Source: Spirochaetota bacterium (GTDB lineage: Bacteria; Spirochaetota; UBA4802; JAFGJZ01). Taken from it: a stretch of 64,000 bases of DNA. A program made the position numbers and the translations under genes. The notes beneath the pieces were generated by a model that did not search any database, was not told the origin of the DNA, and saw only the letters and a program-made list of their open reading frames with translations. The stretch lies in contig JAQIBV010000050.1 of NCBI GenBank assembly GCA_027858855.1, positions 1-64,000 of the forward strand. The letters run 5' to 3'. Below are positions 38,363 to 59,552 of this stretch, in pieces. The stretch's first letter is position 1. The number at the start of each line of letters is the position of its first letter.

Positions 38363-39490
38363 TTATTTTATTTGCAACCGGTTCTCATTCTTCAACATTT
38401 GGTACAGATGTGATGAAAAATCATCTTCCAAATCTTCAGGGCAAGTAAACTTTTTGTCAAAGACCACTTCCCACATATGGTTGCTCTCCATACACATGTA
38501 CAAATATGGATGATCTGTAAATTCAGTTATCGCGTTTCGTAATGTCTGGTATACCTCGACCCTCTGTTGCCACAAATAACGGTATTTCATATCCTCACCC
38601 GGAAAAAATTCTCCAGTACTCATCTGCTCATGTGGAAAGTTTTTTCGTACAGTTTCAACAAAGGGGTTCTGATAACGGAAACCTCCCATCGAAATCCAGA
38701 CAACCGATTTTTCTGGTACCTTCTCAAAGATGACTTTAACAACATTTTGATAATCAGCTTTCCAATTATCATATAAAATTACCGGATCGAAATGAAAGGC
38801 TACGTAATAACCAGCGCGTGCCGCCCGAGCAGCAGCATTGATTCGTTCGTCAAGAGTTGCTGCACCCTCCTCGTATAAATCACAGTTTCTTGAACTGTTA
38901 ACACTCCAACCAATAACTGCATTCCCCTTATTCTTAATATTTAATAGATGCTCAACATTATCAGATTTTGTTTTTAGTTCAAGCATAATAGAGGGATGCT
39001 TCGCAAAAAGATCAATAAGATGCGCTCCGATTCCAGTAAGTTCATCAATCATAAGTGAATCAGTAAACTCGCCCGTGCCAATACGGTAAATCATACCAGG
39101 AACCATCTCGTCAAAAAATGGATCAATATGTTTATAGAGTTCATCCATGTTCGAAAACAGTTGAATACCAAATGAGTTTAGATAGATCTGCAAATAGCAA
39201 TAAGCACAGTTATAAAGACAGTTGAAGCCTGTATTAATCAGCCGGTAATTACAGCAGATCATTTTAGGGGTACCCGGACACATCTGGAAAATACGCCCCA
39301 TAAACTTTTTAAAAAGCACAATCTCTTTCGATTTATACTGCATACGGAATTTATTGATAATAGTGTTAAACTGATCCTCATCTGTATAGGTAAACAGCAT
39401 TACTTCGGGAATATTCAGAAACTTTTGTACAATAGGAGTTATTTCCTGTGGATCATAGACAACAGCCTTAATGGTGTTCGCTTGAATCAT
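38363..39490 (-). CDS. Radical SAM protein of the spore photoproduct lyase family
   Basis: A 375-residue protein with the radical SAM cluster motif C-x3-C-x2-C in FNCLYNCAYCYLQIYLN near residue 93. Sequences around it (CPGTPKMICCNYRLINTGFN upstream, IGTGEFTDSLMIDELT and LELKTKSDNVEHLL downstream) are those of the SPL-like family. Members repair thymine-thymine photoproducts in spores, but relatives are widespread in non-sporulating bacteria, where their function is unknown. AAGGATATACC precedes the ATG. It is a stand-alone gene. Confidence 0.82.
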   Translation of the reverse strand: MIQANTIKAVVYDPQEITPIVQKFLNIPEVMLFTYTDEDQFNTIINKFRMQYKSKEIVLFKKFMGRIFQMCPGTPKMICCNYRLINTGFNCLYNCAYCYLQIYLNSFGIQLFSNMDELYKHIDPFFDEMVPGMIYRIGTGEFTDSLMIDELTGIGAHLIDLFAKHPSIMLELKTKSDNVEHLLNIKNKGNAVIGWSVNSSRNCDLYEEGAATLDERINAAARAARAGYYVAFHFDPVILYDNWKADYQNVVKVIFEKVPEKSVVWISMGGFRYQNPFVETVRKNFPHEQMSTGEFFPGEDMKYRYLWQQRVEVYQTLRNAITEFTDHPYLYMCMESNHMWEVVFDKKFTCPEDLEDDFSSHLYQMLKNENRLQIK

Positions 39491-39734: not shown

Positions 39735-39764
39735 TTGACGACTTTTTAGCATAAGGTCTATTGA
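39735..39764 (+). promoter_or_regulatory. Promoter of the putative 6S RNA
   Basis: -35 TTGACG at 39735-39740, an 18-bp spacer, and -10-like TATTGA at 39759-39764. This places the start near 39770, exactly where the closing stem of the structured RNA begins. Confidence 0.5.
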
Positions 39765-39769
39765 CAGCA

Positions 39770-39940
39770 AGCCTGCGTTGTTCGTGTTAGAATTAATGCC
39801 CTTTAACCTACTTAAGCTCAGGGATCTCAACATCTGGATTTGTAGGCAATGCCCGCAAGGGACTGCTGAATTGTCTGTGAGGGAACCCACCTGTACAACA
39901 GGTTAAGAGCGGCTTTTTTCTCACGGCAACTGCGGGTTTT
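39770..39940 (+). ncRNA. ssrS: Probable 6S RNA
   Basis: A structured region of about 170 nt. Its ends pair: CCTGCGTTGTTCGTG (39772-39786) with CACGGCAACTGCGGG (39922-39936), about 14 bp with single-base bulges, followed by TTTT. Inside, GCCCTTTAACCT (about 39799-39810) can pair with AGGTTAAGAGCGGC (about 39900-39913), and ACCTGT-ACA-ACAGGT forms a competing small hairpin on the 3' side, preceded by GGGAACCC. A closing stem, large internal bubble, 3'-side hairpin and apical arm with GCCCGCAAGGGAC is the 6S RNA plan, in which the bubble mimics an open promoter and traps sigma-70 polymerase. Confidence 0.6.
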
Positions 39941-40211
39941 AATAATTCACTTCTCAATCGCTCCTCACTCATCGGCTTATCTCTCTTTCTGCACTTTTAA
40001 GTCTAGGTATAAAGTACAAGCGGAAACCAAAACATTTAAAACAGGGTAAATAGGATCCTTAAAAACTGGGTTTTTCTTCAGAGCTCCATACTTAACGAAA
40101 GAAATTTCTGGACTCTACAGTGCTACTGTGTGAAAAAGTCTTAGGATGTGATATTAAATCAAAAAAAAATATAATTTGCGAAATAAACACTGCTTCACAG
40201 GAGAAGGCCTC

Positions 40212-42941
40212 ATGAAAAAAATTAACATTATTCTGGCAGTAACTGCAATTGTACTTCTTTATACTGTCTTGAGTATGAGTTCACTTATCACCGATTATCT
40301 CTGGTTTGATCATTATGGCCAGCTTAAAACATTCTTTACCCTGTTTATTACCCGTTTTGCTGTTAAAGGTATTTTTGCTTTGATCTTTCTAACACTTCTG
40401 GTATTGAACACATTTATTGTAATATTTTTATCCGGTGGCGGAAGAACTGCTTCAATCCCATTTTTACGGTTATTACCTCCCTCTTTGCAAAAAAAGAAAT
40501 ATATAATCGGTGCACTGATACTTGTCTTCATTTTTTTAAGCTATGTTATGGGTTCGGCTGCACAACCATTCTGGACCGATATTCTGAAATACCTGAACCA
40601 AACTCCATTTTCCAACTATCCGGCCGACCCAATATTTAATCGTGAATTATCCTTTTATCTCTTTTCGCTCCCCTTTTACAACTTTATCCATGGCTGGATA
40701 ATAGGCGCACTTGTTGTAATTTCGATTCTGAGTATTGTTTTCCATATAATGACCGGTGCATTTTCTATGCGAACAGGCAAGGTAGAAGTCAGTCCGGCTG
40801 CTCGTTCACACCTATCCATTATGGGATCACTCTTTATGCTTAGTGTTGCCGTTGGATATTATCTCTCGGCATTTGACATACTGTTTTCACAACGTGGTAA
40901 ATTTTATGGCGCTGGTTACACTGCCGTAAATTCTCAGCTGTTTGCCTACAGAATATGCATGATTCTGGCCATTATTGCTGCAGTATTACTGGCAGTCAAT
41001 GTATTCCGACGCAGCATAAAACTCGCTACGATTTCGGTTGCGGCAACCTTTATACTATTCATTATTCTTGGCTCCATTATTCCTTCAATGCAACAACGCT
41101 TTGTAGTCGAACCAAACGAGCTTGAAAAAGAACGAGAATATATTAACAATAATATTACCTTTACCCGTCTGGCTTACGGCCTGTCCGATATACAAATTGC
41201 CGAATTCCAGAATGACGGAGAGCTTTCTGTTGAAGATATTCGCGATAACAAAGATGTCATCAGTAACATTCGTCTCTGGGATTGGCGGCCATTGCAACAG
41301 ACCTACAGGCAGATTCAGGAGCTGAGACCCTACTACTCTTTCATGGATGTAGACGTTGACCGTTATGTAATTGGTGGTTCATTGAGTGCCGTAAACGTTG
41401 CTGGTCGCGAACTTCTTACAAGACAACTTTCTCCCAATTCACAAACATGGGTCAACACCCACCTTGTTTACACACACGGATACGGTGTTGTAATGAACCG
41501 TGTAGATCGCATAACTCCTGAAGGAATGCCGGAATTAATCATCAAGGATATTCCACCACAGTCGGATCATTTTGAAATAGACCAACCACAAATATATTAC
41601 GGAGAACACGACAACGACTACATTCTTACAAACACGGGAATCAATCCTGGAGAGTTTGACTACCCATCAGGCGAAAGCAATAGTTATACAACTTACGATG
41701 GACTCGGCGGCATAAAGCTGGATTCCATTTTCAAGAGGCTAATGTATGCCCTCACTTTCAGTGACATTAATATTCTGATATCTAACAATATTCTTCCGCA
41801 AACCAGAATTCATTATAATCGCAACATTAAAGAACTAGCATCAAAACTGGCTCCGTTTATAATACAAGATACCGATCCCTACATTGTAATATCTGAGGGA
41901 CAACTCTATTATATTATGGACGCCTATACTCTAACAGATCAGTTTCCATACTCTACCCCACTTAAGAACAGGCGAATAAACTATATTCGTAACTCGGTTA
42001 AAATAGTTGTGAACGCCTATGATGGAGATATTAAATATTACATTTCAGATATTAGTGATCCAATAATTCAGACCTATGCGTCTATCTTTCCCGATCTGTT
42101 TTCTGATTTTTCTGAAATGCCTGCCGGCATTAAACAGCATATCCGTTACCCAGAAACACTGTTTGATGTTCAGGCCGAAATTCTGTTGCGATACCACATG
42201 ACAGACGCCAATGTATTTTACAACAATGAAGACGCATGGGACATTCCTAACCAGATTTATGACAGCAGTGAACAAAAGATGGAGAGCTATTATATAATTA
42301 CTCGACTACCGGGTGAAGATTCAACCGAATTTGTATTAATGGTTCCCTTTACTCCAATTCAGAAAAGCAACATGGTCTCATTTATGGTTGCTCAATGTGA
42401 TAATGACAATTATGGAAAAATGACACTGTACAAACTGCCAAAGGACAAACTTAATTATGGCCCGATGCAACTTGAAGCCCGCATAAACCAGGATGCCAAT
42501 ATCTCTAAACAGCTTTCGTTGTGGAGCCAGAAAGGTTCAAGGGTTATCCGGGGAAATATGCTGGCTATTCCGATAAAAGAATCACTTTTGTTTGTGGAGC
42601 CCTTATATCTTAAGGCAGAATCAAGTGAAATGCCGGAATTAAAACGAGTAATTGTCTGCTTTCGCGATAAGATTGTTATGGAAGAAAATCTTCCAGATGC
42701 GCTCGCTAGAATTTTCGGGCTAACCGAACGAAGCACTGACGAAAAAGATGAGAGTAGCAGAGGTAAAGCATCACCTGTTTCAAAGTTGCCGGATTCTATT
42801 AAAAACTTAACCCAAGAGGCTTATAAAGTATACACAAACGCGACTGAGCAGTTAAAGTCGGGCGACTTTGAAGCATATGGAAACAGCATAACTGAACTTG
42901 GTAAGTTGCTGCAAAAATTAAATGAGTATGGCGAAAAGTAA
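40212..42941 (+). CDS. UPF0182 family membrane protein
   Basis: About 909 residues from the ATG at 40212 (AGGAGAAGGCC upstream); an in-frame start 12 codons earlier lacks a ribosome-binding site. The first ~310 residues contain about seven transmembrane helices with the family opening TDYLWFDHYGQLKTF. A large extracytoplasmic domain follows with RLAYGLSDIQIAEF and ELRPYYSFMDVDVDRYVI, typical of UPF0182. The C-terminal ~70 residues are a charged helical tail. The function of the family is unknown. It is intact and near full length for the family. Confidence 0.88.
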   Translation: MKKINIILAVTAIVLLYTVLSMSSLITDYLWFDHYGQLKTFFTLFITRFAVKGIFALIFLTLLVLNTFIVIFLSGGGRTASIPFLRLLPPSLQKKKYIIGALILVFIFLSYVMGSAAQPFWTDILKYLNQTPFSNYPADPIFNRELSFYLFSLPFYNFIHGWIIGALVVISILSIVFHIMTGAFSMRTGKVEVSPAARSHLSIMGSLFMLSVAVGYYLSAFDILFSQRGKFYGAGYTAVNSQLFAYRICMILAIIAAVLLAVNVFRRSIKLATISVAATFILFIILGSIIPSMQQRFVVEPNELEKEREYINNNITFTRLAYGLSDIQIAEFQNDGELSVEDIRDNKDVISNIRLWDWRPLQQTYRQIQELRPYYSFMDVDVDRYVIGGSLSAVNVAGRELLTRQLSPNSQTWVNTHLVYTHGYGVVMNRVDRITPEGMPELIIKDIPPQSDHFEIDQPQIYYGEHDNDYILTNTGINPGEFDYPSGESNSYTTYDGLGGIKLDSIFKRLMYALTFSDINILISNNILPQTRIHYNRNIKELASKLAPFIIQDTDPYIVISEGQLYYIMDAYTLTDQFPYSTPLKNRRINYIRNSVKIVVNAYDGDIKYYISDISDPIIQTYASIFPDLFSDFSEMPAGIKQHIRYPETLFDVQAEILLRYHMTDANVFYNNEDAWDIPNQIYDSSEQKMESYYIITRLPGEDSTEFVLMVPFTPIQKSNMVSFMVAQCDNDNYGKMTLYKLPKDKLNYGPMQLEARINQDANISKQLSLWSQKGSRVIRGNMLAIPIKESLLFVEPLYLKAESSEMPELKRVIVCFRDKIVMEENLPDALARIFGLTERSTDEKDESSRGKASPVSKLPDSIKNLTQEAYKVYTNATEQLKSGDFEAYGNSITELGKLLQKLNEYGEK

Positions 42942-49501: not shown

Positions 49502-50629
49502 ATGAAAATTGAAGAACTACTAGATCTGATACATGAAAACGGGATCGACTTCTTTACCGGAGTACCCGACTCGCAGTTGAAAGCACTGTGCGATACCCTC
49601 TATTCTAAATATGGAACTACAGAAAAACATGTTGTTGCTGCAAACGAGGGCGCGGCAGTGGCACTTGCCGCCGGCCATTATCTGGCAACGGGAAAGCCTG
49701 CACTTGTGTACATGCAAAATAGTGGAATCGGAAACGCGGTTAACCCGATCTGCTCTCTTATTAATGACAAGGTATATGCCATACCTGTGCTCTTTATAAT
49801 AGGATGGCGTGGAAAACCTGGCACTCATGATGAACCACAACATATTTTTCAGGGTGAAATTACAACCAGTCTGCTCGATCTGCTTGATATCGAGACCCAT
49901 ATACTCACCGACAAAACCACAACCGAAGAACTTGCCGCCATGAACAACAGTATAAAAAAGACACTTGCTAATGGCAGAAGTGCAGCCTTTGTTGTAGAAA
50001 AAAATGCCCTGCAAACTGACGCCAAAACAGATTTTAAAAATGGCTACCCTATAAGTCGCGAAAGAGCAGTTGAAGTTATTACCCGAAACACAGACAACAG
50101 CGATGTCTTTGTTTCGACAACGGGGAAATTGTCTCGTGAACTCTATGAAATCAGAGAGGCCGCCAACGAAGGGCATGAGAAAGATTTTCTGACAGTTGGA
50201 TCCATGGGGCACAGTATTATGATTGCCTGCGGTATAGCTGCTCAGAAAAAAGAACGCAGAGTTTTTTGCCTTGATGGTGATGGAGCAGTGCTTATGCACA
50301 CGGGAAGCCTTGCAGTTTGCGGTTCACACGCCTACCCTAACCTTGTACACATTGTATTAAACAATGGGGCTCACGAATCGGTGGGGGGAATGCCGACTGC
50401 AGCCGAAGCTATTGATCTTTTATCAATTGCAGGAGGATGTGGTTACAAACAAACATATAGCGTACAAAACGAAAATGATCTTATTAACACACTTGAAAAG
50501 ATAAAAACAGTTGAAGGCCCTATCTTCATTGAAGTAAAAATCAATATCGAATCACGCGGAGACCTGAGCAGGCCAACAAGCACACCACAGCAGAACAAAC
50601 AGGCCTTTATGGAACACCTGAAGAACTGA
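49502..50629 (+). CDS. Phosphonopyruvate decarboxylase
   Basis: A 375-residue thiamine-diphosphate enzyme that pulls the unfavourable PEP mutase reaction forward by decarboxylating phosphonopyruvate to phosphonoacetaldehyde. The N-terminal pyrimidine-binding half has FTGVPDSQLKALCDTL and the conserved glutamate in AANEGAAVALAAGHYLATGK. The C-terminal half has the TPP motif GDGAVLMHTGSLAVCGSHAY, closing with LNNGAHESVGG. CCGGAGAGT lies before the ATG. It is the first gene of the cluster, with a LicC-like gene 41 bp downstream. The usual partner gene, PEP mutase, is the third gene. Confidence 0.93.
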   Translation: MKIEELLDLIHENGIDFFTGVPDSQLKALCDTLYSKYGTTEKHVVAANEGAAVALAAGHYLATGKPALVYMQNSGIGNAVNPICSLINDKVYAIPVLFIIGWRGKPGTHDEPQHIFQGEITTSLLDLLDIETHILTDKTTTEELAAMNNSIKKTLANGRSAAFVVEKNALQTDAKTDFKNGYPISRERAVEVITRNTDNSDVFVSTTGKLSRELYEIREAANEGHEKDFLTVGSMGHSIMIACGIAAQKKERRVFCLDGDGAVLMHTGSLAVCGSHAYPNLVHIVLNNGAHESVGGMPTAAEAIDLLSIAGGCGYKQTYSVQNENDLINTLEKIKTVEGPIFIEVKINIESRGDLSRPTSTPQQNKQAFMEHLKN

Positions 50630-50670
50630 TCAGGTTATAATACCAGATAATGGAGTATTAAGAAACCGTT

Positions 50671-51378
50671 ATGAAAGCTCTTATATTGAACTCAGGCGTT
50701 GGCAAACGGATGGGAAATCTGACAGCTGACCGTCCTAAATGCATGGTAGAGGTCGAGGGCGGACTATCCACCCTTGATTTTCAGCTCTGTATACTTGAAA
50801 AATGCGGTATATCGGATGTTGTGATTACAACAGGCCCATTTGAAGAGATGCTACAGAAACATGTTTCACAAACCTACCCCTTTTTAAATGTAATTTATGT
50901 AAATAATCCGGAATATAAAAAGACTAACTATATCTATTCCATTGCATTGGCAAAAGATCAACTGGACGATGACATTATCCTGATGCATGGTGACCTTCTC
51001 TTTGAGGAAAGTGTTTTTCAGGATATTTTACTCAGCAAAAGTAGTGTAATGGTTGTTGACAGCACACTGCCTTTACCGGAAAAAGATTTTAAAGCCGTGA
51101 TTGATAATAATCGAATAACCAGGGTTGGGATAGAATTCTTTAAAGATGCCTGTGCCGCGCAACCACTGTACAAGCTGCTTAAAAACGACTGGACACTATG
51201 GCTAAATAAGATTATCGAATTTTGTGATAATGGCATTCGGGATGTCTATGCTGAAAATGCCTTGAACGAAATATCCACATCTATCAATATCGAAGGATGC
51301 GACATTAAAGGTCGCCTATGCGGAGAGATCGATACAAAAGAAGATCTGATAAAAATAAAGAAGTTCCTTAAATCCTAA
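50671..51378 (+). CDS. LicC/PntC-like cytidylyltransferase
   Basis: A 235-residue nucleotidyltransferase. The NTP-binding loop is LILNSGVGKRMGNLTADRPK, close to the LAAGxGxRLxPLTxxxPK signature with AAG replaced by NSG. Later features are NNPEYKKTNYIYSIALAKDQ, the metal-binding MHGDLLFEE, and ENALNEI near the end. Relatives activate phosphocholine (LicC) or phosphonates such as 2-aminoethylphosphonate (PntC) with CTP. Standing between the decarboxylase and PEP mutase genes, it is the best candidate to make the CMP-phosphonate. Substrate unproven. Confidence 0.8.
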   Translation: MKALILNSGVGKRMGNLTADRPKCMVEVEGGLSTLDFQLCILEKCGISDVVITTGPFEEMLQKHVSQTYPFLNVIYVNNPEYKKTNYIYSIALAKDQLDDDIILMHGDLLFEESVFQDILLSKSSVMVVDSTLPLPEKDFKAVIDNNRITRVGIEFFKDACAAQPLYKLLKNDWTLWLNKIIEFCDNGIRDVYAENALNEISTSINIEGCDIKGRLCGEIDTKEDLIKIKKFLKS

Positions 51379-51392
51379 AAAGTGAGAAATTA

Positions 51393-52691
51393 ATGAAAAA
51401 AGTATACCTGAGCATGAGCTCTGACATCATCCATAACGGCCACATAAAAATAATCTCTAAAGCAGCTACTCTGGGTGAACTAACTGTTGCGGTATTAACC
51501 GACGAGGCCGTTGCAAAATATAAAAGATACCCTCTGATCCCCTTTGAAGAGCGAATAGAAATCATCGGAAACATTAAAGGTGTATCAAATGTTGTTCCGC
51601 AAAATACAATTGGCTATGAGGAAAACCTGCTAAAATATAAACCGGATATCGTTGTTCACGGAGACGACTGGAAAATAGGCTTTCAGGCTCCCATTCGTGA
51701 AAAGGTAATCGAAACATTAAAAAGTTATGGTGGTGAACTTATTGAATTCCCCTATACTAACGATAGCAACCTGATCGCTATTGAGAAAAATGCCCGCAAA
51801 ATTCTCTCTATGCCCGAAAACAGGCGTTCAAGATTGCGCACTCTGTTGAACCATAAAAAATGTCTGAGCATTATGGAGGCACATAACGGATTGACCGGGC
51901 TTATCGTAGAAGACACCAATGTCGAATCTGAAGGTGAAATTCGACAGTTTGACGGAATGTGGGTTTCCAGCTTGTGTGATTCGACTGCAAAAGGAAGACC
52001 CGACATAGAACTTGTAGATACAACATCACGAATCAGCACCATTCACGAGATTATGGAGGTGACGACCAAGCCCATAATTCTGGATGGAGATACTGGCGGC
52101 CTTGTAGAGCATTTTCAGTTTTTTGTTAAAACACTAGAGAGAATGGGAGTCTCGGCAATAATTATTGAAGACAAGGTTGGCTTAAAGAAAAATTCACTTT
52201 TTGGCAACGAGGTTGAACAGTTTCAGGCCCCTATCTGTGATTTCTCCGAAAAAATCCGTCTTGGTAAATTAGCTTTATCTACATCTGATTTTATGATAAT
52301 CGCCCGGATTGAAAGCCTGATACTTGAACAGGGCATGGAAGACGCCCTTACACGTGCCTTTGCCTATGTCGAAGCCGGGGCAGACGGGATAATGATTCAT
52401 TCAAGACAAAAAACTCCTGACGAGATCATCGAGTTTATTGGCTCGTTTCGAGCTCAAGACAAAGAGACTCCGATTGTAATTGTTCCAACAACCTTTAACA
52501 CCGTTACTGAAAACGAATGGGAAAAGATGGGAGTAAATATTATCATTTATGCCAATCAGTTAATCAGAAGTGCTTTCCCTGCCATGAAAAAAACTGCTGA
52601 GACAATCCTTACTAATAACAGATGCCAGGAAGCCGATGCAAACTGTATGCCAATAAAGGAAATATTAACACTGATACCCGACGCTAATTAG
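51393..52691 (+). CDS. PEP mutase with N-terminal cytidylyltransferase-fold domain
   Basis: A 432-residue fusion. Residues about 1-140 have the TagD/cytidylyltransferase fold: HNGH at 14-17 and HGDDWK at 89-94. Residues about 155-432 are PEP mutase, with the signature EDKVGLKKNS (259-268), DGDTGG (231-236), and IMIHSRQK. It converts PEP to phosphonopyruvate, the entry to nearly all C-P bonds. In the fused domain, the position where such proteins normally have a GISST nucleotide motif reads YTNDSNLIAI (121-130), so nucleotide transfer by this domain is doubtful. AGTGAGAAATTA precedes the ATG. Confidence 0.93.
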   Translation: MKKVYLSMSSDIIHNGHIKIISKAATLGELTVAVLTDEAVAKYKRYPLIPFEERIEIIGNIKGVSNVVPQNTIGYEENLLKYKPDIVVHGDDWKIGFQAPIREKVIETLKSYGGELIEFPYTNDSNLIAIEKNARKILSMPENRRSRLRTLLNHKKCLSIMEAHNGLTGLIVEDTNVESEGEIRQFDGMWVSSLCDSTAKGRPDIELVDTTSRISTIHEIMEVTTKPIILDGDTGGLVEHFQFFVKTLERMGVSAIIIEDKVGLKKNSLFGNEVEQFQAPICDFSEKIRLGKLALSTSDFMIIARIESLILEQGMEDALTRAFAYVEAGADGIMIHSRQKTPDEIIEFIGSFRAQDKETPIVIVPTTFNTVTENEWEKMGVNIIIYANQLIRSAFPAMKKTAETILTNNRCQEADANCMPIKEILTLIPDAN

Positions 52692-52703
52692 GAGAGCTGC
52701 AAA

Positions 52704-53807
52704 GTGAGTAAGCAACAACAGGTAATCAGAGAAAATGATGGATACAAAAAAATTGAAGAAATTTTAAGGAGTCATCACTCCTCTAAATTTCTTCTGGTAT
52801 GTTCAAGACGTGATAATCCTGTTAAAGATTATTTAATCAGCCTGAATGTTGAGCATGCTGTTTACAGTGATTATCAGCAAAACCCTCTTTACAGGAATGC
52901 TGCCGAAGGTGTTGATCTTTTTAAAACAGAGGGCTGCGACTTCATTATTGCCATTGGTGGCGGAAGTGCAATTGACGTTGCTAAATGCATAAAACTTTTC
53001 TGCAAGATGGATGAATCGATCTGCTATCTTGATCAGACTTTCACAGATACAAAAATTCCTCTTATTGTTCTGCCCACAACTGCCGGCGCCGGAAGTGAAG
53101 CCACAAAATATGCGGTAATATATAAAGATGATGTAAAACAGACGGTAACTCATGAATCAATTATACCTGATTATGTGATACTGGAGCCCTCTTTTCTTTC
53201 GACTATTCCCGAATACTATAAAAAAAGCGCAATGCTTGATGCACTGTGCCAGGCAATTGAGTCCATGTGGTCTGTAAATTCGACGAACGAAAGCATGGAG
53301 TACTCCAAAGAATCAATAGAACTTATTTTAAATGGATATAAAAATTATCTTGATGGCGATCAGGAAGCCGCAAGATCCATTATGAATGCTGCAAACTTAA
53401 GCGGCAGGGCTATAAACATTACACAGACAACCGCCGCCCATGCCATGAGCTATAAACTGACCTCGCTGTACCGGATCGCACACGGACATGCAGTTGCACT
53501 GTGTTTACCCTATGTGTGGGAATACAGCTTGAATCATCCCGAAAAGATTACCGACACAAGAGGCGTCTCGCATCTGAATTCAGTTTTCGCACAACTTAAT
53601 CACCTCTTCGGCTCTGATAGCACGCAAGACTCAATACTGCTCTTCAGAAAACTTGTGGAATCTTTAAATCTTGAAATCTTCCAAAACGATGTCTCTATCC
53701 TTGCCGCATCCGTAAACCCTGACAGACTTAAAAATAATCCGGTAAATCCGGGAGCAGACGGCATAACAAAGATGTATACAGCATTACTCAATGAAATTAT
53801 AGGGTAA
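52704..53807 (+). CDS. Iron-containing alcohol dehydrogenase, probable phosphonoacetaldehyde reductase
   Basis: A 367-residue group III alcohol dehydrogenase. NAD binding: GGGSAIDVAK (85-94). Later PTTAGAGSEATK and metal ligands in DALCQAIESMW, AAHAMSY and HGHAVALCLPYVWE. In phosphonate clusters such enzymes (PhpC/FomC-like) reduce phosphonoacetaldehyde to 2-hydroxyethylphosphonate. With no transaminase (AEP route) or phosphonatase present, hydroxyethylphosphonate is the predicted product. GTG start with AGGAG upstream; it begins 12 bp after PEP mutase. Confidence 0.88.
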   Translation: MSKQQQVIRENDGYKKIEEILRSHHSSKFLLVCSRRDNPVKDYLISLNVEHAVYSDYQQNPLYRNAAEGVDLFKTEGCDFIIAIGGGSAIDVAKCIKLFCKMDESICYLDQTFTDTKIPLIVLPTTAGAGSEATKYAVIYKDDVKQTVTHESIIPDYVILEPSFLSTIPEYYKKSAMLDALCQAIESMWSVNSTNESMEYSKESIELILNGYKNYLDGDQEAARSIMNAANLSGRAINITQTTAAHAMSYKLTSLYRIAHGHAVALCLPYVWEYSLNHPEKITDTRGVSHLNSVFAQLNHLFGSDSTQDSILLFRKLVESLNLEIFQNDVSILAASVNPDRLKNNPVNPGADGITKMYTALLNEIIG

Positions 53808-55837: not shown

Positions 55838-57043
55838 TCAGGTTTTACCAGCACTTAATTGCTTAATTAAAGCCGCCACCCTTTTTGATGATCCGTAATC
55901 GCTAAACCTGTAAAACATCTTAAAGCTATAATGGAACATCTGATTAGTTACAGCAAATTCATTACGGCAAGCATCATTAACCGCAGTAAAGAGTTCTTCA
56001 AAATTAGCTACAAGAGGCCCGGGGAAGATATCCCTGTATTCATAAATGAGTCCACGATCCTTCATATATTCTTCATAGTCATAAGCAAACCCTATCACCG
56101 GTTTTTCTACAAGAAGATAATCAAGCCACAAAGAGGAGTAATCGGTAAGAAGGAGATCAGTTGTTCTCAATATCATCTGTACATTGTTGAATTTTTGACT
56201 GCTCAGATCAATAATTCGTTCATGGTTATAAAGACCATCCCTGTAATTAGTAAAATAGTCGTGAGTTCTTAACCCGAGCACGGCATTATTCTGTTCAAGC
56301 AGATTACACAAGCGATACAGTTCTGTAGTTGAAAAAGGATAAACACCCGAAAAAAACTTTTTTGGAGCCGGATTTCGGAATGTTGGTGCGTATAACACCA
56401 GTTTTTTACCATCAAGAAGTTCTTTTAAAGAATCATATTCCTTGCGCATTTCGGCAGGTAAATTATTAATGGGCATTTTCATCCAGTCGTTTCGGGGAAG
56501 TCCTGTGATAAAAAATCTAGAGTATGGGATATTGAAGCACGCGCTCATGGCCAGTTTATCTACTTTTGAGGAACAGATAATTCCGGTACAATTAGCCTCC
56601 TCCTTTTTAAAATTATTTTTCAAATTAGCATAACCCGAGGCAGATGTATATCTCAGCCCCTTTACCGGTATACCATGCCATAAATTAATAATAACCCTTC
56701 TTCTTTCGGTTATTCCAAATACGAAAAGATCGTTACGGGCATGCTGAATAATCAATACGCGAGTTTTAAATAAAAGTAAAAGACCCTTTATACTATTAGT
56801 TTTAATGATTTTTTTACTAATAATTTTTTCTAGATTTTGATTATTTCCGTTTACCGAAGTTATCTCGTATACAATATCGGGATCATTTTTAATATATTCC
56901 CATAACGCGCGAATATTTCCATTAAAAAGATCATCGCGACCAAGCTGAAAAACCCAAATTTTTTTGTTACGGGGATAAAGCAAATCAATAACATTAATAA
57001 TTAAATTTACGACGCGATAAATTGTACGAGTGACTATTTTCAT
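55838..57043 (-). CDS. CDP-glycerol glycerophosphotransferase-like (TagB/TagF family), third of three
   Basis: A 401-residue transferase that adds glycerol phosphate from CDP-glycerol to a sugar or polymer. NLWHGIPVKGLRYTS near residue 120 carries the catalytic His, and LLTDYSSLWLDYLL near 300 carries the late Asp/Ser motif; YDYEEYMKDRG and FPGP follow. It lacks the N-terminal glycosyltransferase domain of some TagF proteins. ATG 4 bp after the previous gene's stop. It faces copy 1 of tagD and is intact. Confidence 0.9.
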   Translation of the reverse strand: MKIVTRTIYRVVNLIINVIDLLYPRNKKIWVFQLGRDDLFNGNIRALWEYIKNDPDIVYEITSVNGNNQNLEKIISKKIIKTNSIKGLLLLFKTRVLIIQHARNDLFVFGITERRRVIINLWHGIPVKGLRYTSASGYANLKNNFKKEEANCTGIICSSKVDKLAMSACFNIPYSRFFITGLPRNDWMKMPINNLPAEMRKEYDSLKELLDGKKLVLYAPTFRNPAPKKFFSGVYPFSTTELYRLCNLLEQNNAVLGLRTHDYFTNYRDGLYNHERIIDLSSQKFNNVQMILRTTDLLLTDYSSLWLDYLLVEKPVIGFAYDYEEYMKDRGLIYEYRDIFPGPLVANFEELFTAVNDACRNEFAVTNQMFHYSFKMFYRFSDYGSSKRVAALIKQLSAGKT

Positions 57044-57047
57044 CTAA

Positions 57048-58250
57048 CTAGCTCCTCTGCAATGACACTAATTCGGTTAAAAATCGGGAAGTTGAATAAT
57101 TATCCCTGTATTTATGAAATCTGTCTGCAAATGAATTATATGATTGTCTGTAGTTTTTTGACACAGACCATTTTTTGTGACTTATGAGAAGTTTCATAAG
57201 TTCAGCTTCATTCTTTGCAAAAGGACCCGGAACAGTTTCATAATAGTCGAAATACATACCTCTGCATTGTGATAAGTAGTATTCGTAGTCGTATGAATAG
57301 AAGATGACGGGTTTACCAGTTAAAACAAAGTCAAAGAACACACTGGAATAGTCGGTAATGAGTAGATCAGTAAAGCATAATAGTTGTTGAATGTCATCAT
57401 AAAGAGAGTTTACGTCAATTATGTTTTCATACCCCGAAATTATTAATGATTTATCGTGAGGATGCTTTTTAACCAACATAATTGATTCTGTTTTTTTAAG
57501 ATAATTATCAAGTTGCACCAGAAAAGAGTCTGAAAACGGATTATTCTGATACCCACTGTCACGAAATGTTGGAGCATAAAGAAATATCTTATCTGATTTA
57601 CGGAATTTTGCAGGCAAAAGCTCTTTACTATACTTTGCGAACAGGATGTCATTTCGGGGAAACCCGGTAATTATGATGTTTTTTGTATTAAAAGCTTTAC
57701 CAATATTTTCAGCTTCTGTATTGGATGCGGCTATTATGAATCGGTATTTTTTGTATTCGAGAGTCTGAAGATATTTTTTTATAGAAGAATAGACACTTTT
57801 GAATAAAGAACTATTGAATAATTGTTCGTGATTTTTAAATTCATCCAGACCGATATATTTCAAAGCTATTCCATGCCAGGTCTGGATTATACTGAATCTG
57901 CCGAACAGTGTACCCATGTACGAAAAATCTTTCACAGAAAAATCGATTATTATGAATTCTGCCCACAGTACAGATAAAAAACCATTTAACGAAAATTTAA
58001 ATACAACAGGCAAATTATCATTTTTTAAACTTTTATAGACATCTTTATTGGCGGTTATCCAAAGGGGTTTCAGCTCCGGGAATTTTGTAGTTATAATATA
58101 TTCAAAGATATATTTGGGGTTTCCTTTGTAAACCTCTCCCCGCCCTGCACCGAAGAGAATCAGATTCTTTTTTTTGGGCACAAGCCTGGACAACACAGCA
58201 AGCAATAAATTGATAATTATATGTACAGAGTTCACTTCGAAACTGATCAT
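57048..58250 (-). CDS. CDP-glycerol glycerophosphotransferase-like (TagB/TagF family), second of three
   Basis: A 400-residue paralogue of its neighbours. The motifs are TWHGIALKYIGLDEF, ITGFPRNDILF, FLYAPTFRDSGY and LITDYSSVFFDFVL with SYDYEYYLSQCRGMYFDYYE. The first hydrophobic residues suggest a membrane-associated start. In teichoic-acid systems one such enzyme primes and another extends the chain; sequence alone does not say which role this has. A 90-bp gap separates it from the first copy. Confidence 0.9.
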   Translation of the reverse strand: MISFEVNSVHIIINLLLAVLSRLVPKKKNLILFGAGRGEVYKGNPKYIFEYIITTKFPELKPLWITANKDVYKSLKNDNLPVVFKFSLNGFLSVLWAEFIIIDFSVKDFSYMGTLFGRFSIIQTWHGIALKYIGLDEFKNHEQLFNSSLFKSVYSSIKKYLQTLEYKKYRFIIAASNTEAENIGKAFNTKNIIITGFPRNDILFAKYSKELLPAKFRKSDKIFLYAPTFRDSGYQNNPFSDSFLVQLDNYLKKTESIMLVKKHPHDKSLIISGYENIIDVNSLYDDIQQLLCFTDLLITDYSSVFFDFVLTGKPVIFYSYDYEYYLSQCRGMYFDYYETVPGPFAKNEAELMKLLISHKKWSVSKNYRQSYNSFADRFHKYRDNYSTSRFLTELVSLQRS

Positions 58251-58340
58251 CTGAACCTCAAGTATTTAAACCCCCAATCAGGGATTCTTATGTATCAAAT
58301 AAACTCATAGATTTTATTATAGAAATTGTATAAAGTTGAA

Positions 58341-59552
58341 TTAATTCTTTAGATTTTTTTCTTCGGATAGATACTCGATTAACCTTTTTGATGAATTGCC
58401 ATCTTTGTAGCGATTAAACCTGTTATTGAAATCCTGATATTTTTTTTGATAACTCTTTTTGCTGAACCATGAGTCCAGGTTTTCGATGAGACTAAAAAGT
58501 TTTTCTGGATCATCGGCAAAAGGACCGGGTAATTCTTTATAAAAATCATAGTACATGCCCCGGCAAAAATCGACGTAATCTGGATAGTCAAAACAGTAGA
58601 AGATAATTGGTCGCTGCAGAAGGGAAAAGTCGAAAAGCACGCTTGAATAATCGGTTATCAGAACATCTGTCTGAACCAGAAGTTCCATTACATCAGGAAA
58701 CAGGGATGAAACGTCAATAATTCTTTTAGAATTAACCGGAACTGAAAGAGAGCTGTCATAGGGATGTTTTTTTATGCAGAGTATGGCATCAGACTTTTCA
58801 AGAACATTTTCCAGTCTGATGGAATCCTGTATAGAAAATGGATAGTTGGAACTTATATCGCGAAACGTGGGGATATAAGATATTACATTTTTATGCTTAA
58901 TACTTACTATGTCTTTGATTTTTACGCTAATAGGAATGTTGTTATTAAAGAAAATATCATTACGGGCAAAACCGGTTTCGATTATTTTATCACAACCAAA
59001 AGCTGTTTTATAGCACTTCGTGCATTCAGGGCCGCTTGAAGTAATGATCTGATATCTGTTATACAGAAAGTGCTTTTTGAAAAGATTTCTAAGACATACC
59101 ACTATCGAAGATAAAATCGAGCTGCCACTGGTATAAGCAGCAATTCCCTTCTTTTCGTCATTCGCGTCATTTCCGATCTTTTTAAGAGGCATGCCATGAA
59201 AGGTTTGTACATACGAGAACCGCCCCAGGGCGTGAACACCCGCGTATATTATATCGCGCGGCATGATTTCAATAAAGAGATACTTAGCCCTCAATATGGT
59301 AAAAAAACCGCGTAAAGAATACTTATTTATTACAGGATCCCCTCGTTTTGCAAGATCAGCTTGTAGTTTTTTATTCCCCACTATCCAGACAGACCTGACA
59401 GACGGCAAATTATTAACACAATACAGGAACACATACTTGGTATTTCCCTTGAAATCGTGACCATCACCCGCACCAAAAACATAAAGTTTGTTATTTTTTG
59501 GTATTAGATAGGAAAAATAGAAGAGTAGAGAGTCCAGTAGTATATTTATCAT
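58341..59552 (-). CDS. CDP-glycerol glycerophosphotransferase-like (TagB/TagF family), first of three
   Basis: A 403-residue paralogue with TFHGMPLKKIGND, IETGFARNDIFF, YIPTFRDISSNYPF and LITDYSSVLFDFSL then FCRGMYYDFYKELPGPF. It starts a three-gene unit on the minus strand. Its upstream region (59553-60221) is shared with tagD copy 2 in the divergent direction. The early residues FGAGDGHDFKGNTKYVFLY are typical of the family. Confidence 0.9.
   Translation of the reverse strand: MINILLDSLLFYFSYLIPKNNKLYVFGAGDGHDFKGNTKYVFLYCVNNLPSVRSVWIVGNKKLQADLAKRGDPVINKYSLRGFFTILRAKYLFIEIMPRDIIYAGVHALGRFSYVQTFHGMPLKKIGNDANDEKKGIAAYTSGSSILSSIVVCLRNLFKKHFLYNRYQIITSSGPECTKCYKTAFGCDKIIETGFARNDIFFNNNIPISVKIKDIVSIKHKNVISYIPTFRDISSNYPFSIQDSIRLENVLEKSDAILCIKKHPYDSSLSVPVNSKRIIDVSSLFPDVMELLVQTDVLITDYSSVLFDFSLLQRPIIFYCFDYPDYVDFCRGMYYDFYKELPGPFADDPEKLFSLIENLDSWFSKKSYQKKYQDFNNRFNRYKDGNSSKRLIEYLSEEKNLKN

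Follow-up and report, generated by a model that had tools for sequence, protein, structure and literature searches.

Positions 39767-39942 of the window (the whole stretch of 64,000 nucleotides that was analysed) almost certainly hold a single-copy spirochaete 6S RNA gene, which would be transcribed from its own promoter. 6S RNA is a small RNA which binds and restrains RNA polymerase in other bacteria as growth slows. The gene is an ordinary, well-conserved member of this known family and leaves the general picture of 6S RNA unchanged. Its promoter elements and the parts of its RNA lie as follows.

39735..39740, plus strand: -35 element TTGACG of the 6S promoter, assigned by conservation
39757..39762, plus strand: weak candidate -10 element TCTATT after a 16-base spacer, placed by position only
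39767..39942, plus strand: 6S RNA (SsrS) gene, about 176 nt
39771..39782, plus strand: terminal (closing) stem, 5' strand
39801..39808, plus strand: 5' strand of helix P2, bordering the central bubble
39809..39820, plus strand: central bubble, 5' side, unpaired in the fold
39821..39888, plus strand: apical (internal) stem with its loop
39881..39888, plus strand: GGGAACCC element, forming the 3' side of the apical stem's base
39889..39903, plus strand: 3' central-bubble hairpin ACCUGU-ACA-ACAGGU, which competes with P2
39901..39908, plus strand: helix P2, 3' strand, whose first three bases (39901-39903) are common to the competing hairpin
39925..39937, plus strand: terminal (closing) stem, 3' strand

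Identity and copy number

Family membership was established with the Rfam covariance models. RF00013 (6S/SsrS) gave a plus-strand match at 39767-39942 whose 73.6 bits (E 1.3e-12) exceed the gathering score of 46.4, and the match covered model positions 1-187 of 187. It was the single match above any gathering score when the whole window was scanned, and the only significant 6S match of the Rfam model in the genome (63 contigs, 97% complete). The preliminary description had proposed a 6S RNA here from the letters of the DNA, with ends near 39770 and 39940. The full-length match, above the gathering threshold and on the expected strand, bears out that assignment, and the model ends at 39767 and 39942 agree with the proposed ones. 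As the one match in the genome is at this position, a 6S locus elsewhere that leaves this one unmatched is excluded.

A model built from relatives (described below) gave the same answer when run on the window's own genome. The 6S locus scored 124.5 bits, a value high by construction, while the next best candidate had an E-value of 0.56. A second copy in the genome was therefore rejected, with none significant under either model. A search for similar DNA in phages gave no match.

Distribution among relatives

Matches at E 0.001 or better were present in 48 of 59 genomes (the window's own and 58 others), always one per genome, and 46 genomes had matches above the Rfam cut-off. We aligned 45 of the 48 genes, including that of the window; a 130-nt match (L067) and two genes below the cut-off (L069 and L070) were dropped. 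The model built from this alignment was then applied to the 13 genomes that had no match exceeding the Rfam cut-off, three of which gave matches at E 0.1 or better (G058, G047, and G053). The first two had already shown weak matches with the Rfam model, and that of G053 was weak (E 0.02). Absences among the 13 genomes are not firm, because only 150 candidates per genome were scored.

Two genomes stand out as carrying divergent or missing 6S copies. G058 contains a weak match (L074; E 9.1e-5 with the Rfam model and 7.7e-8 with the relatives-built model). G007, which is 91% complete and belongs to the same order, had no match with the Rfam model, nor any among the 150 candidates scored with the relatives-built model.

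Structure and covariation

The fold computed for 39765-39945 (-57.4 kcal/mol) contains both the long terminal stem and the large bubble that had been drawn by eye. By itself this fold is just modestly better than chance (z -2.0 against dinucleotide shuffles, with 8 of 200 shuffles folding at least as well), and the covariance match and the covariation are far stronger evidence.

For the covariation analysis we took the RNAalifold consensus, removed its hairpin and added helix P2. Across the 45 aligned genes, window's included, 92.7% of cells in this rod structure were paired. Double-sided changes occurred in 24 of 38 pairs and in 220 cells, where shuffles averaged 75.5. When the partners were slid by one to three columns, pairing fell to 35-50%; the structure derives in part from the same alignment, which gives it an advantage over the slid versions, though the margin is wide. 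Covariation thus establishes the structure of the RNA. In the terminal stem (columns 5-16 with 191-203 of the alignment) 97.6% of cells were paired, and in P2 (columns 39-46 with 165-172) 86.7%. Within the apical stem, helices 3-6 carried double-sided changes in 17 of 19 pairs.

The conserved element GGGAACCC named in the preliminary description is present at 39881-39888. Its GGG pairs with 39826-39828 and its CC with 39822-39823 (columns 141-147), and the Rfam consensus at this element has CCCACCU at the 3' end.

Promoter and transcript ends

Conservation supports the -35 element. Of the 45 aligned genes, window's included, 43 have the motif TTG[AC] lying 30-35 bases ahead of the model start, while shuffled upstream stretches contained it in a mean of 4.0 genes and a maximum of 11 (500 rounds of mononucleotide shuffles). 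The position of TTGACG in the window would put the transcription start near 39767-39771. Owing to its weak -10, this promoter was absent from the hits of a simple consensus scan. Of the sigma-70-like promoter claimed earlier, then, the -35 stands as a conserved element, and the -10 is a weak candidate.

The T-run that had been taken as the 3' boundary (39914-39919) falls inside the RNA, and the RNA ends near a short T-run at 39937-39940. The run at 39914 was rejected as a terminator since it lies within the Rfam match. A terminator scan found no intrinsic terminator for the 6S gene.

Competition between P2 and the 3'-bubble hairpin

The competing hairpin ACCTGT-ACA-ACAGGT of the preliminary description is real: ACCTGTACAACAGGT is located at 39889, and the hairpin spans 39889-39903, with three bases in common with P2. 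In the alignment, 87.0% of its cells were paired. Its covariation score was 0.305, against 0.143 in shuffles; two of its pairs had double-sided changes, a number no higher than in shuffles.

Energy calculations establish a two-state fold. For the free RNA, the energy model gave P2 a probability of about 0.82 and the hairpin 0.18. The folds with P2 and with the hairpin were 0.4 kcal/mol apart, the cost falling on forcing the hairpin. With the P2 5' strand and its edge blocked, as they would be by a product RNA, the core pairs of the hairpin in the window's RNA rose above 0.99. Across the alignment, the hairpin reached 0.5 or more in 13 of 45 genes when free, in 32 of 45 when 14 bases of the P2 5' strand were blocked, and in 15 of 45 under a control block of nine bases in the 5' bubble. 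In the 13 genes that reach it when free, the unblocked RNA already prefers the hairpin, so the switch is not uniform. Despite the P2 block, the hairpin did not reach 0.5 in 13 of the 45 genes. These low values probably stem in part from a shifted alignment register, and several of these rows, in the alignment as made, do appear to pair in a shifted register (e.g. L054, L057, L058, L061, and L066).

By analogy with the family, these data can be placed in a putative cycle. The RNA folds to a rod whose central bubble is open and would mimic an open promoter. In this form it would bind the RNA polymerase holoenzyme that carries the housekeeping sigma factor, lowering its activity as growth slows. 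Once nucleotides return, the polymerase may copy the bubble into a short product RNA. Its predicted start is in the 5' bubble, near 39809-39812, from where it would extend into the P2 5' strand, a presumed part of the template. Opening of P2 would free the 3' strand, allowing the hairpin at 39889-39903 to form and the RNA to release the polymerase. That the RNA binds polymerase, that a product RNA is made and starts at this site, and that there is a role in growth phase are all expected here from other members of the family.

We tentatively raise the possibility, which we regard as rather less than even, that the 6S RNAs of this spirochaete order release polymerase through a compact two-state switch between P2 and the 6-bp 3'-bubble hairpin. 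The two-state switch is of minor interest and does not amount to a new kind of mechanism. Passages of PMC8876501 describe rearrangements of this kind for other 6S RNAs.

Neighbouring genes and alternative readings

The 6S gene is placed between two protein-coding genes.

38363-39490, minus strand: radical SAM protein resembling spore photoproduct lyase (PF20903), arranged head to head with 6S
40212-42941, plus strand: UPF0182 gene (PF03699)

The position of the RNA on the same strand as UPF0182, 270 bases upstream of its start at about 40212, and the same gene order in a sister genome are what one would expect if the RNA served that gene as a riboswitch or structured 5' leader and were not a free RNA. 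Most loci in our neighbour comparison had at most 1.5 kb of flank; within these limits, UPF0182 was near the RNA in 2 of 30 loci compared (L001 and L029), L029 being the only one among the 29 other loci. From the protein side, the closest relatives of the UPF0182 protein are in Spirochaetota MAGs (best 66% identity, JAFGRW010000106.1). We found 22 UPF0182 loci, 17 spirochaete and five Bacillota-type, and scanned the 17 for RNA families, leaving out the five non-spirochaete ones; one of these 17 loci contained the RNA. The RNA is therefore kept without UPF0182, and UPF0182 without the RNA. UPF0182 is also preceded by a separate promoter-like site (GTGATA-16-TATAAT, 40148-40175), although such sites are equally frequent in shuffles, and 6S was the only RNA family matched. 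Since, of the loci compared, only that of the sister genome shares the linkage, we rejected the leader, which is scarcely credible.

A decayed, non-functional 6S copy, with the working gene elsewhere in the genome, could account for a score of 73.6 bits that lies below those of many relatives (up to 102.2). We consider this very improbable. The 97% complete genome has no other significant match; the stem, bubble, conserved element, and -35 are all intact; and the sister genome (G001) has the same P2 sequence variants with a similar 72.7 bits.

6S membership needs no gene neighbourhood. The lyase-like gene was near 6S in 4 of the 29 other loci (L029, L008, L021, and L018), and a search for five neighbour proteins in the stretches taken from G002 and G003, two further genomes of the same family, gave no match (L071 and L073).

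Further along the window, 49502-53807 and 55838-59552 hold a gene row followed by CDP-glycerol glycerophosphotransferase-like genes. The row comprises a TPP enzyme, a nucleotidyltransferase, a fusion of PEP mutase with a cytidylyltransferase-like domain, and an iron-dependent alcohol dehydrogenase; the three CDP-glycerol glycerophosphotransferase-like genes that follow are on the opposite strand. Together these regions look like a system for phosphonate decoration of a surface polymer.

Comparison with known 6S RNAs

This work adds a well-supported 6S gene and a 45-gene alignment in a spirochaete branch known mostly from metagenomes. The gene can be annotated confidently, and the sequences offer material for asking how product-RNA release differs among phyla. 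We found no literature on 6S product RNAs (pRNA) in spirochaetes, and none that treats 6S RNA in Borrelia, Leptospira, and Treponema together.

The RNA shares with Rfam RF00013 a full-length covariance match, a rod with a central bubble, and the conserved CCCACCU in the 3' bubble, while at 176 nt its gene falls slightly short of the 187 positions of the model. Within the same phylum, Barrick et al. 2005 predicted the 6S RNA of Borrelia burgdorferi (Bb6S), and RNA-seq has shown it, according to parts of PMC6041397. The likeness to Bb6S is one of family and phylum.

For E. coli 6S RNA, passages of PMC8876501 describe a 3'-bubble hairpin which forms from the P2 3' strand upon product-RNA synthesis and P2 opening. 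The spirochaete hairpin would likewise take P2 3'-strand bases once P2 opens, but it has 6 bp where 9 bp are given for E. coli in that source, and has just three bases in common with P2. For Bacillus subtilis 6S-1, the same passages report a small 3'-bubble hairpin that is partly preformed in the free RNA, and no extended hairpin on product-RNA synthesis. The spirochaete hairpin is also small and partly present in the free RNA; here, unlike in B. subtilis, hairpin and P2 are mutually exclusive at three bases. With near-equal energies and three contested bases, the switch could conceivably be a form between the E. coli and B. subtilis modes of release, a reading that we hold only tentatively.
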